A stretch of 64,000 nucleotides of DNA from Mogibacterium sp. (lineage in GTDB: Bacteria > Bacillota > Clostridia > Peptostreptococcales > Anaerovoracaceae): contig JAFRCS010000016.1 in NCBI GenBank assembly GCA_017404265.1, positions 124,001 through 188,000 on the forward strand, given 5' to 3'. Position numbers and translations under genes: made by a program. The notes beneath the pieces were generated by a model, which was given only the letters and a program-made list of their open reading frames with translations, made no database searches and was not told the origin of the DNA. Shown piece by piece: positions 10,602 to 14,485 of this stretch (the stretch's first letter is position 1; each line of letters opens with the position of its first letter).

Positions 10602-11219
10602 ATGTGCTGCAGATACTATTACGCAGATCAGATCCGCGACATGCTGGATGACCTGATCGCCTCACAAACTATCAAGACTGCCGAACCACTGCAGGTGGAG
10701 CCGGGACGGGATATCCGCCCCTCGGATGCATCTGCGGTGATTTATCGTGATGGAGAGGATTTGTCAGTTTCCAACATGAAATGGGGCTTTGAAAACCCAT
10801 ATGCGAAGGGCCTTATCATCAACGCCCGATCTGAGACGGCAAGAGAAAAGAATCTGTTCAGCGACAGCATAATGAACCGCCGCTGTGTCATCCCTGCAAG
10901 CGGTTTCTATGAATGGGATGTGTATAAGGCAAGATTCAGATTCTTTTTACCGGGCGAGCTTCTTTTTATGGCAGGCTTCTACCGTGAAGAGCAGGGTGTG
11001 CCAAGATACACCATCCTGACAACAGAGGCTAACGGATCCATGAAGCCGGTCCATGACAGGATGCCTGTCATGATCGGCAAAGATGAGATCCGGACATGGA
11101 TATCAGATAACGAAAGGCTTTCTGAATTTCTTGAGAGGCCGCAAGTACGGCTGATCAGAGAACTGGACTCGGGACAGATAAGAATGGACTTCGGGATAGA
11201 CTCCACGATGCGTAGGTAG
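10602..11219 (+). CDS. SRAP (HMCES/YedK-type) abasic-site protein
   Basis: A 205-residue SOS response-associated peptidase family protein. The family forms a covalent thiazolidine crosslink with abasic sites in single-stranded DNA and so shields them. All key residues are present: Cys2 (exposed after Met removal, MCCRYYY), N74 in INARSET, E104 in GFYEWD and H151 in VHDRMPV. These match the YedK positions Cys2, Asn75, Glu105 and His160 as I recall them. It begins nine bases after the glycosyltransferase stop, with a poor ribosome binding site. It opens a run of DNA-damage genes that continues to 14.5 kb. Confidence 0.92.
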   Translation: MCCRYYYADQIRDMLDDLIASQTIKTAEPLQVEPGRDIRPSDASAVIYRDGEDLSVSNMKWGFENPYAKGLIINARSETAREKNLFSDSIMNRRCVIPASGFYEWDVYKARFRFFLPGELLFMAGFYREEQGVPRYTILTTEANGSMKPVHDRMPVMIGKDEIRTWISDNERLSEFLERPQVRLIRELDSGQIRMDFGIDSTMRR

Positions 11220-11268
11220 TGCCCCTTCGGCATATGTGATAATTTAGTGCCGCAAGGAGGTAAGAACC

Positions 11269-11847
11269 ATGGACAGATATGTTACCGGAGCTGTGATACG
11301 AAAGCTCCGTGAAAAGAAAAAGATAACACAGGAAGAGCTGGCGGGCTTGATACATGTCAGCGGCAAGGCCGTGAGCAAGTGGGAAACAGGACAGGGCTTC
11401 CCTGACATAAGCCTGCTTGAGCCGCTGGCAAAGGCACTCGACATATCCGTTATAGAATTGCTGTCCGGTGAGGATATCAGAAACACGAATCGCTCTTTCA
11501 AAATGGCGAGAGGAAAGTTCTATGTCTGCCCGGTCTGCGGAAATGTCATCATCGCAACAGGAGAGACGGTAGTGAGCTGCTGCGGTATAACGCTGCCGCC
11601 TCTTGAAGCAGAACCCGCGGATGAGGAACATGCTATCCGCAAGGAGGTTGCTGAAGACGAGTATTACGTTTCAGTCGGCCATCCGATGACAAAAGAGCAT
11701 TATATATCATTTCTGGCAGCGGTCTCCGATTTCGGAGTCCAGCTTGTAAAGCTCTATCCGGAAGGAAACGCGGAGGCAAGATTCAAGATCGACAGGGTCA
11801 GAACAGTCTACGCGTATTGCAACAGACACGGCTTGTTCTGCGTATAA
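11269..11847 (+). CDS. XRE-HTH regulator fused to a desulfoferrodoxin domain
   Basis: A 192-residue fusion. Residues 1-66 are an XRE/Cro helix-turn-helix (ITQEELAGLIHVSGKAVSKW). Residues 80-192 read as a complete desulfoferrodoxin. The rubredoxin-like centre I cysteines are C87, C90, C104 and C105 (CPVCGN, then SCCG). The superoxide-reductase centre II ligands are H121, H138, H144, C184 and H187 (EEHAI, GHPMTKEHYI, YCNRHG), so all five expected iron ligands are kept. AAGGAGG upstream fixes the start and a strong terminator follows. Desulfoferrodoxin reduces superoxide with a ferrous site that also reacts with NO. Coupling it to a DNA-binding domain suggests a redox-sensing repressor or activator, which is inference. 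It sits among DNA-repair genes. Confidence 0.88.
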   Translation: MDRYVTGAVIRKLREKKKITQEELAGLIHVSGKAVSKWETGQGFPDISLLEPLAKALDISVIELLSGEDIRNTNRSFKMARGKFYVCPVCGNVIIATGETVVSCCGITLPPLEAEPADEEHAIRKEVAEDEYYVSVGHPMTKEHYISFLAAVSDFGVQLVKLYPEGNAEARFKIDRVRTVYAYCNRHGLFCV

Positions 11848-11862
11848 AAAACATTTTTGATC

Positions 11863-11885
11863 GCCCCGGGAAACCGGGGCTTTTT
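11863..11885 (+). terminator. Rho-independent terminator after the HTH-Dfx gene
   Basis: A seven-base GC-only stem (GCCCCGG/CCGGGGC) with a GAAA tetraloop is followed by five T. It separates the regulator from the repair genes that follow, so those must start from their own promoter or by read-through. Confidence 0.93.
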
Positions 11886-11916
11886 CATTTAATACAATAG
11901 AAGGAAACAGTGTATA

Positions 11917-12417
11917 ATGGATTCAGAAACAATGAAAACGCGTTTGAATCACCCTTTCGGTCCTTTATATGATGAGAACAGCCGGGTACTTATACTCGGC
12001 TCTTTTCCGTCTGTGAAATCCAGAGAACAGAACTTCTTCTACGGGCATCCGCAGAACAGGTTCTGGAAGGTGGTTTCCATAATATTTGAACAGCCAGTGC
12101 CGCAGACAGTAGAAGAGAAGAAACAGCTGATACTCAGCAGTGGCCTGGCGCTTTGGGATTCAATAGCGAGCTGTGAGATCACGGGCTCATCCGACTCCAG
12201 TATCAGGAACGCGCGAGCCAATGATATCCGGATCATCCTGGATAGCTGCAATATTGAGAGAATTTATTGCAACGGTCGCAAGTCACATGAACTGTACAAA
12301 AAATATATAGAACCGCAGACCGGACGTGAGGCGGTATGCCTGCCTTCCACCAGCCCGGCCAATGCGCAGTGGACACTGGAGAAGCTGATCGAAGAGTGGT
12401 CAGTTATAAGGGGATAA
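11917..12417 (+). CDS. DNA-deoxyinosine (hypoxanthine) glycosylase, UDG superfamily
   Basis: A 166-residue member of the family 6 (HDG) uracil-DNA-glycosylase superfamily, expected to remove hypoxanthine formed by deamination of adenine. The motif 1 region reads RVLILGSFPSVKS, followed by NFFYGHPQNRFWKVV, which is characteristic of this family. The C-terminal LPSTSPANA is the DNA-minor-groove loop equivalent. Upstream is GAAGGAAA at good spacing. A TATAAT-like string overlaps the start codon but is unlikely to be functional there. It is followed after two bases by the AlkD fusion, so both are surely one operon. Confidence 0.9.
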   Translation: MDSETMKTRLNHPFGPLYDENSRVLILGSFPSVKSREQNFFYGHPQNRFWKVVSIIFEQPVPQTVEEKKQLILSSGLALWDSIASCEITGSSDSSIRNARANDIRIILDSCNIERIYCNGRKSHELYKKYIEPQTGREAVCLPSTSPANAQWTLEKLIEEWSVIRG

Positions 12418-12419
12418 AA

Positions 12420-13496
12420 ATGAAGGTCATGGTCAGCGCCTGCCTGCTTGGGCAGAAATGTAAATATAATGGCGGCGACAATTACAGCGACAGTGTGATC
12501 GCGTTCACTGAAGGCCACGAAGTGATACCTGTCTGTCCGGAGATGGAAGGAGGACTTCCTGCTCCGCGTATCCCGTGCGAGATCGTGAACGGCATTGTCA
12601 TGAACAGCGCGGGTGAGAACAAGGACCGTGAGTTCAGAGAAGGCGCGGAAAAGTGTCTGAAACTGGCAAAAGAAAAGGAAATCGACCTTGCCATACTGCA
12701 GCCCCGCAGTCCGACATGCGGCGTTGGGCACATCTATGACGGGTCTTTCTCGGGGAAGATCGTTGAGGGGAACGGGGTGTTTGCTTCTCTTCTGATAGAA
12801 AACGGCTTTAAAGTCATGAATGCCAATGACCTGAGATTTTTTGAACTTCAGGATGAGAAGTACAGAGACTTCCAGGCTAAACTGATCCCCAATATAGATC
12901 CGGAAACTATGATCGGCATACGCACGCCTGAGCTCAGGAAACTCGCAAAAGAGATGGCAAAAGAATCGGATACCTGCAAGTTTCTTGCAGCGCTGCCTCA
13001 CAGGTGGTTCGACGAGAATCAGCTGCACGCGTTCATTATCTCCCTGACAAAGGACTTTGACACATGCATAGCACAGGTCGAACGCTTTCTGCCGTATATA
13101 GACAACTGGGCAACATGCGACCAGCTGTCGCCTAAGGTGTTTGGAAAGAATAAAGAAGACCTGCTTAAGCATATAAGGGAGTGGCTGAAGTCGGATAAAA
13201 CATACATTATACGTTTTGCTGCCGGCATGCTGATGCAGCACTATCTGGATGATGATTTCGACCCTGAGTATCCTGAGATGGTGGCTGCGATCGAGTCGGA
13301 CGAGTACTATGTCAACATGATGCGGGCGTGGTACTTCGCGACGGCACTGGCAAAACAGTATGATGCGGTCATCCCATACATAGAGGAGAATCGCTTGGAT
13401 AAGTGGACTCATAATAAGACTATACAAAAGGCGGTCGAGAGCTACAGGATAACTCCGGAGCAGAAAGAGTATCTTAGGGGACTAAGGATCAAATAG
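12420..13496 (+). CDS. DUF523 domain fused to AlkD-like DNA alkylation repair domain
   Basis: A 358-residue two-domain protein; the ATG at 12420 follows AAGGGG and lies just after the previous stop. Residues 1-145 are DUF523: MVSACLLGQKCKYNG, CPEMEGGLPAPR and QPRSPTCGVG, with conserved cysteines. Residues 150-358 are an AlkD-type HEAT-repeat DNA glycosylase (IRTPELRKLAKEMAKE, then YIDNWATCDQLSPKVF, whose Asp matches the catalytic-site Asp of AlkD). AlkD enzymes excise N3- and N7-alkylpurines without base flipping. DUF523 has no firm function. The fusion places DUF523 in a DNA-repair setting, which is a clue to its role. The next gene starts six bases later. Confidence 0.88.
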   Translation: MKVMVSACLLGQKCKYNGGDNYSDSVIAFTEGHEVIPVCPEMEGGLPAPRIPCEIVNGIVMNSAGENKDREFREGAEKCLKLAKEKEIDLAILQPRSPTCGVGHIYDGSFSGKIVEGNGVFASLLIENGFKVMNANDLRFFELQDEKYRDFQAKLIPNIDPETMIGIRTPELRKLAKEMAKESDTCKFLAALPHRWFDENQLHAFIISLTKDFDTCIAQVERFLPYIDNWATCDQLSPKVFGKNKEDLLKHIREWLKSDKTYIIRFAAGMLMQHYLDDDFDPEYPEMVAAIESDEYYVNMMRAWYFATALAKQYDAVIPYIEENRLDKWTHNKTIQKAVESYRITPEQKEYLRGLRIK

Positions 13497-13501
13497 AACT
13501 G

Positions 13502-14485
13502 ATGACAATAGAACAGAAGGTGTTCAGCCGGAAGCGATTCAATATCAAGCGGTTGGCAGACTACGGATTCATTAATAACTATGCATGCTACTCACTGTCA
13601 AGGGACTTTCTGGACGGTGATTTTACTGCCGAGATAAGGGTTTATGAAAATGGCATGGTGAACGGCAGAGTAATGGATAACATGATCGGCGAGGAATATA
13701 CGCCTCTTCGCATGTCTAACTATGCCGGAGCATTTGTCGGTTCAGTCAGGGAGGCTTATGAAGAGCTTCTGCGCGACATTGCGGATAATTGCTGCACGGA
13801 TGTTACCTTTGCTTCGGACCAGAGCAACCGCATCGCTGCTTCCATACTCGACAGATACGGGGTGGAACCGGACTTCCCATGGGAGGATGAAAAACACGGA
13901 GCTTCCGGAGTGTTCAGACATGGCAGCAACAATAAATGGTTTGGGCTTATCATGAACATCGACAGGAGGCTTCTGGATAAGGGCACTGATGAAGAGGCCA
14001 TAGATGTACTCAACCTCAAGGCGGATGAGAACAAGACAGCCGCCCTGCATAAGATAAGAGGCATATATCCTGCGTATCACATGAACCATAAAAAATGGAT
14101 ATCTGTCACGCTGGATGACACTCTGGAGGACAGGGATGTCATGGATCTTGTTGATGAGAGCTTCAGGCTGACATCAGGTGCGGCAAGACCAATGAATGAG
14201 AAACTCATGCGCGAGGTATACGCGGTCGCAGACAGCATACCTCCGGGCAAGGTGATGTCGTACGGGCAGATCGCCGCGGTCCTGGGACGGCCAAAGAACT
14301 CAAGGCTCATCGGAAAGATAATGAGCCTGGCGGACAGATACGGCGACCACCCCTGCCACCGTGTCGTGAACAGCGCGGGACGTACTGTGCCTGGCTGGCC
14401 GGAGCAGCGGGAGCTCCTTGAGGCAGAGGGTGTGACTTTCAGAAAAAACGGTAATGTGGACATGGAGAAACACCGCGCAGAGTAA
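13502..14485 (+). CDS. MmcQ/YjbR domain fused to O6-alkylguanine-DNA alkyltransferase
   Basis: A 327-residue fusion. Residues 1-225 match the MmcQ/YjbR (DUF419) type, including FPWEDEKHGASGVFRH and KWFGLIMNI. Residues 235-327 are an MGMT/Ogt active domain with PPGKVMSYGQIAAVLGRP and the acceptor-cysteine motif DHPCHRVV (C285). Because the motif is PCHR and not PWHR, the protein should be a true suicide alkyltransferase and not an ATL. YjbR domains are DNA-binding-like folds, so the fusion could help lesion search; that is inference. It ends 11 bases before the GH31 gene, with no terminator or obvious promoter between the repair genes and the sulfoquinovose genes. Confidence 0.9.
   Translation: MTIEQKVFSRKRFNIKRLADYGFINNYACYSLSRDFLDGDFTAEIRVYENGMVNGRVMDNMIGEEYTPLRMSNYAGAFVGSVREAYEELLRDIADNCCTDVTFASDQSNRIAASILDRYGVEPDFPWEDEKHGASGVFRHGSNNKWFGLIMNIDRRLLDKGTDEEAIDVLNLKADENKTAALHKIRGIYPAYHMNHKKWISVTLDDTLEDRDVMDLVDESFRLTSGAARPMNEKLMREVYAVADSIPPGKVMSYGQIAAVLGRPKNSRLIGKIMSLADRYGDHPCHRVVNSAGRTVPGWPEQRELLEAEGVTFRKNGNVDMEKHRAE

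Follow-up and report, generated by a model that had tools for sequence, protein, structure and literature searches.

A desulfoferrodoxin domain fused to a helix-turn-helix in Mogibacterium sp., with a conserved operator at its own promoter: a candidate self-targeting regulator

A gene in the 64,000 nt window analyzed here (the whole stretch of Mogibacterium sp. DNA taken from contig JAFRCS010000016.1) encodes an XRE-type helix-turn-helix (HTH) domain joined to a desulfoferrodoxin (Dfx) domain, and a conserved inverted repeat is found at its promoter. Self-targeting of the encoded protein is strongly supported by the distribution of this repeat in genome sequences. The explanation we favor, and hold to be somewhat probable as a whole, is that a protein whose Dfx domain is noncanonical governs its own synthesis alone, as a dimer at the operator, with the state of the Dfx centre tuning DNA binding. 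The confidences given to this explanation and to its rivals overlap and do not total one; autoactivation, or enzyme activity that persists, would each replace only a single step of it. If a superoxide-reductase centre does the sensing, strict anaerobes would own a superoxide/iron-redox sensor distinct from SoxR, OxyR and PerR. Given an operator of 19 bp, one predicted target and a difference in a catalytic residue, the question of whether such a centre can be a sensor becomes directly testable.

The fusion gene and its operator

The features of the gene and its promoter are as follows.

11200..11218, + strand: operator ACTCCACG-ATG-CGTAGGTA, an imperfect inverted repeat and predicted HTH site, overlapping the 3′ end of the upstream SRAP gene (exact core of the operator, 11202-11217)
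11217..11222, + strand: weak -35, TAGTGC, with two bases shared with the operator and 17-bp spacing to the -10
11237..11245, + strand: extended -10, TGA-TAATTT, conserved as TGN-TANNNT
11254..11260, + strand: ribosome-binding site AAGGAGG, read from the sequence
11269..11847, + strand: HTH-Dfx fusion gene, ATG start, 192 aa, identified by profile, sequence-search and fold matches
11296..11460, + strand: XRE/Cro-type HTH, residues 10-64, with matches to Pfam HTH_3 and to the fold of the P22 c2 repressor
11863..11880, + strand: intrinsic terminator GCCCCGGGAAACCGGGGC, followed by a T-rich tail

The fusion of an XRE-type HTH to a Dfx domain, described in an earlier note on this DNA, is borne out by several kinds of match. 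Residues 10-64 correspond to Pfam HTH_3 (E=1e-12), the Dfx domain corresponds to Pfam PF01880 (E=1.4e-6, which exceeds the curated cut-off), and residues 83-190 align to the dfx_rbo equivalog TIGR00320 of NCBIfam (E=5.5e-13), with a score that misses the cut-off of that family (49.2 bits vs 146.9). In phmmer searches, solved Dfx structures are matched at E ~1e-8 and the P22 c2 repressor at 1e-5. The Dfx fold, which the earlier note proposed to look for in a structure prediction, is present in an AlphaFold2 model (pLDDT 84, from a 40-sequence alignment). The top Foldseek matches of this model are the superoxide reductases 1y07 (E=6e-10), 2ji1/2ji2 and 1dfx, and P22 c2 is among the matches for the HTH part.

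A contig scan gave at least 395 places that encode relatives of the query, some of which may match by the HTH alone. The 80 relatives retained are 74-92% identical to the query and include Treponema bryantii; it should be noted that these 80 loci are the nearest relatives, stem mostly from metagenomes assembled from the gut, and are not independent of one another. The inverted repeat TCYACG-N3-CGTRGGT, or a sequence close to it, is found upstream of all 80, at an operator-to-ATG distance of 47-59 bp in most of the loci. A TANNNT motif, usually with TGN before it, begins 22 nt past the operator in 75 of the 80; the -35 is of the TAG or TTG type in 47/80, and an upstream AAGGAGG is present in 54/80. 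Loci L113-L125, from a second genome set that lay outside the training of the weight matrix described below, carry the site in most cases. In a distant sister clade a variant site of the ACTCTACGGAGCGTTTATT type occupies the same place in 12 of 16 loci, each followed by a -10 at the 22-nt distance.

It is very likely, as judged from the co-occurrence and co-variation of HTH and site, that the HTH acts on the operator at 11200-11218. The conserved operator at the gene's own promoter thus lends real support to the link with transcriptional control that the earlier note had put forward. The operator was also considered as an RNA element, and this was rejected: the predicted -10 is downstream of the repeat, the RNA fold does not stand out (z -1.05) and there is no Rfam match in the window.

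The HTH pair of a dimer would bind one TCYACG-N3-CGTRGGT repeat overlapping the gene's own -35, most likely with autorepression as the result, relieved by oxidation or metal loss. A possible alternative, to which we give less credence, is an autoactivator: a dimer at about -43 that contacts sigma and turns on its own weak promoter in one redox state of the Dfx domain. Class II activation, with the geometry of lambda CI at PRM, would also suit the placement of the operator, in that the site spans approximately -52 to -34, the -35 of the close group is weak (TAG/TAA/TGG) and the 22-nt spacing is fixed in the 75 loci noted above. However, the promoters under the sister-clade operator are of a good sigma-A type (TTGAAA/TATAAT, with a mean of 8.75 of 12 matches) and need no activator, and the 17-bp rule for -35/-10 spacing alone accounts for the fixed distance. 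An argument for activation from helical phase was set aside as not decisive, because the same 17-bp spacing explains the phase. Because the operator of the distant clade overlaps near-consensus promoters, repression is somewhat preferred over activation.

Exclusivity of the site

Whole-genome searches yielded 32 exact sites, 31 of which precede HTH-Dfx genes. The genome of this Mogibacterium (1.83 Mb) has a single exact match. Another 45 genomes with matches to the fusion profile contain 16 exact sites; 14 are directly before HTH-Dfx, one heads an operon of a flavoprotein gene and the fusion, and one is inside a transketolase gene. A further 16 genomes, of which three are Spirochaetaceae, have 15 exact sites, all before HTH-Dfx. 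A weight matrix, trained on the same sites from the 80 loci as those scored, finds 75 self sites and no others in 1.09 Mb at a score of 18 or more.

These counts bear on the reading of the protein as a global oxidative-stress regulator with a wider regulon reached via degenerate sites, which we regard as very improbable. Autoregulation is common among stress regulators, and AhpC/TSA proteins are encoded by three upstream neighbours. Against this, no second site above background was detected in the Mogibacterium genome or in the other genomes searched, and one-mismatch matches fall in total below a reversed-pattern control, all five examined being in coding sequence. Nor was the operator found at the canonical dfx locus of the same genome; canonical-dfx loci are without a comparable site, bar one score of 16.1. 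Apparently no other target carries the TCYACG-N3-CGTRGGT site, and it is likely, on these searches, that through this site the HTH acts on no other target. Secondary sites that are weaker or of another shape may be present.

Some loci with unusual arrangements were observed. Genome G492 has a second HTH-Dfx copy with its own operator, about 15 kb away from the other (L200 1116-1706). At L191 163-1445 (genome G306) the operator precedes two genes that form one unit, for an NAD(P)H:FMN-reductase-like flavoprotein and for HTH-Dfx; the latter has His in place of C105 and Asp in place of H187, and may be a variant with altered metal binding, paired with an electron donor. Both of these substitutions recur in an HTH-less relative that has an AlkD-like gene upstream (L140 1468-1896). 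The operator is absent at this locus, and the HTH and its site have apparently been lost together.

Metal centres and the altered desulfoferrodoxin domain

The Dfx domain has the following features.

11527..11583, + strand: Center I, C87, C90, C104 and C105, a predicted desulforedoxin-like Fe(Cys)4 site with the spacing CX2CX13CC
11623..11631, + strand: lid loop E119-E120-H121, Glu-Glu-His, where canonical Dfx has Glu-Lys-His
11680..11829, + strand: Center II ligands H138, H144, C184 and H187, with H121 completing the His4Cys set

All nine ligand positions named in the earlier note are correct, i.e., Cys at 87, 90, 104 and 105, His at 121, 138 and 144, C184 and H187. The nine are invariant or nearly so across 93 close fusions, the exceptions being H187, which is Asp in four, and C105, which is His in one. 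Since the ligands are so well kept in relatives, the domain match is not a chance one. Each Center I Cys is kept in at least 92 of the 93 close relatives and in 16/16 distant ones. In the sister clade, the first His ligand is gone from nine of 16 fusions (L126, L127, L128, L129, L133-L136 and L141), which keep the other Center II ligands; the exception is L134, the one distant-clade fusion in 16 that is also without the last His, H187. The fusions missing the first His are predicted to be natural four-ligand Dfx centres.

The description of the domain as a complete desulfoferrodoxin holds for the metal ligands, all of which are present, but the catalytic Lys48 is missing, as are parts of the lid loop. 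The Glu47-Lys48 pair is replaced by E119-E120. The Lys48 position has Lys in 54/54 canonical Dfx proteins, vs 1/93 fusions of the close group and 0/16 of the distant clade. The Pro after the EKH motif and the Trp aligned with F190 are gone in the fusions, loops are shortened, and the Cys spacing is CX2CX13CC vs CX2CX15CC in canonical Dfx. K142, K161 and Y163 are fusion-specific residues, the K142 position being basic in 109/109 fusions and acidic in most canonical proteins. Lys48 is said, after work by Lombard et al. in 2001, to have a role in catalysis of the canonical enzyme. The Ignicoccus hospitalis enzyme is active although it is without Lys48. Loss of this residue need not end activity, and the nearby K142 could substitute for it. 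Because Lys48 is lost and the lid loop shortened, the fusion is probably no standard superoxide reductase; retention of the ligands together with loss of Lys48 favors a sensor or a changed chemistry.

The Mogibacterium genome encodes a separate canonical Dfx that bears the EKH motif, and its gene adjoins an FprA-type flavoprotein gene (named from sequence). A canonical Dfx is also present in 17 of 18 HTH-Dfx genomes of the same family; across the phylum approximately 20 of 33 fusion genomes hold one, and approximately 13 have no other Dfx. Therefore the fusion is neither a simple replacement of Dfx nor dependent on it.

That the protein is a working superoxide reductase with autoregulation, with full Dfx activity and an HTH that only sets its dose, is unlikely on these data, because canonical Dfx is usually present alongside, Lys48 is gone almost throughout with the lid loop shortened, and the first His is missing in 9/16 of the sister clade. 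However, all metal ligands are retained, K142 could stand in for Lys48, and there are the roughly 13/33 genomes without another Dfx; a regulator of itself alone would also be easiest to understand if the protein had a further role. The sole close fusion that retains Glu-Lys-His (L067 8001-8594) is in genome G480, where no canonical Dfx was found, and this too would suit an enzyme. A structural zinc/metal domain only, a Dfx relic kept for dimerisation with neither sensing nor catalysis, is improbable. It would account for the missing Lys48 and, in some sister-clade fusions, the missing His ligand, but within the close group the two ligand sets are nearly invariant, which points to a function of the metal centres.

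In the self-regulation explanation favored here, iron would be held at the Cys4 and His4Cys centres, and the redox or metal state of these centres would most likely change DNA binding, by which the protein adjusts its own level. The superoxide reductase job would be done by the cell's canonical Dfx and probably not by the fusion. The Dfx domain may nonetheless have an activity of its own; a protein that regulates itself alone presumably acts further through this domain, or is a buffered sensor.

Relatives, known class and neighbourhood

The search for other HTH-Dfx fusions suggested in the earlier note finds many relatives in Clostridia and Treponema. The fusion profile is matched in 37 of 398 phylum-level genomes, a few of them via one domain only. 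In a tree of Dfx domains, those of every fusion lie together on the same side of a branch with 100/100 support, and the distant clade is a supported group among them. Tentatively, the superoxide-reductase fold may have been recruited a single time, in the distant past, as the metal/superoxide-sensing domain of a self-only regulator, giving a sensor class of Clostridia and Treponema in which the Lys has been lost and the active-site loop is decaying.

The architecture is not novel, contrary to what the earlier note had supposed. SORGOdb (2011) sets apart 19 proteins as the class HTH-Dx-SOR, with an HTH before a Dx-SOR module (PMC3116461), and the fusion shares this order of an N-terminal HTH (residues 10-64) ahead of a desulforedoxin plus superoxide-reductase module (residues 83-190). 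In its main text that paper classifies only, and no mention of an operator, autoregulation or loss of Lys48 was found there. New here, beyond the 2011 class listing, are the loss of Lys48, the separate canonical Dfx, the operator and the exclusivity of the site. No functional study of HTH-Dx-SOR proteins was found in the literature searched. TrtA of Treponema denticola was considered as a characterized relative and rejected, as it is 104 aa long and HTH only.

Desulfoferrodoxin, the 2Fe-superoxide reductase (1dfx, 2ji1), has the same fold, Cys4 centre I and His4Cys centre II as the fusion, which differs in the absence of Lys48, shorter loops, the CX2CX13CC spacing, the fused HTH and its separate clade. 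With the lambda/P22-type repressors of the XRE family, such as P22 c2, it shares the HTH fold and a dyad at its own promoter beside the -35. In those repressors, however, the C-terminal part is a self-cleaving peptidase-like dimerisation domain in place of Dfx, and unlike them the fusion has one operator only.

Genes of DNA-repair type surround the fusion gene (window 10602-14485). They include SRAP/HMCES, a uracil-DNA-glycosylase superfamily protein, a 2-thiouracil desulfurase domain fused to an AlkD-like domain, and a YjbR domain fused to an O6-methylguanine methyltransferase domain. No neighbour is common to more than about one in eight of the HTH-Dfx relatives. A functional tie to the SRAP, UDG, AlkD and MGMT neighbours was thus rejected, as they are not conserved at other HTH-Dfx genes. 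The terminator at 11863-11880 suggests a single-gene unit and, since the neighbours are not conserved either, there is no co-transcribed effector.

Elsewhere in the same genome, a 325-aa frame (G000:C4:56634-56858) aligns with the fusion profile over the HTH and has no Dfx match, which suggests domain shuffling.
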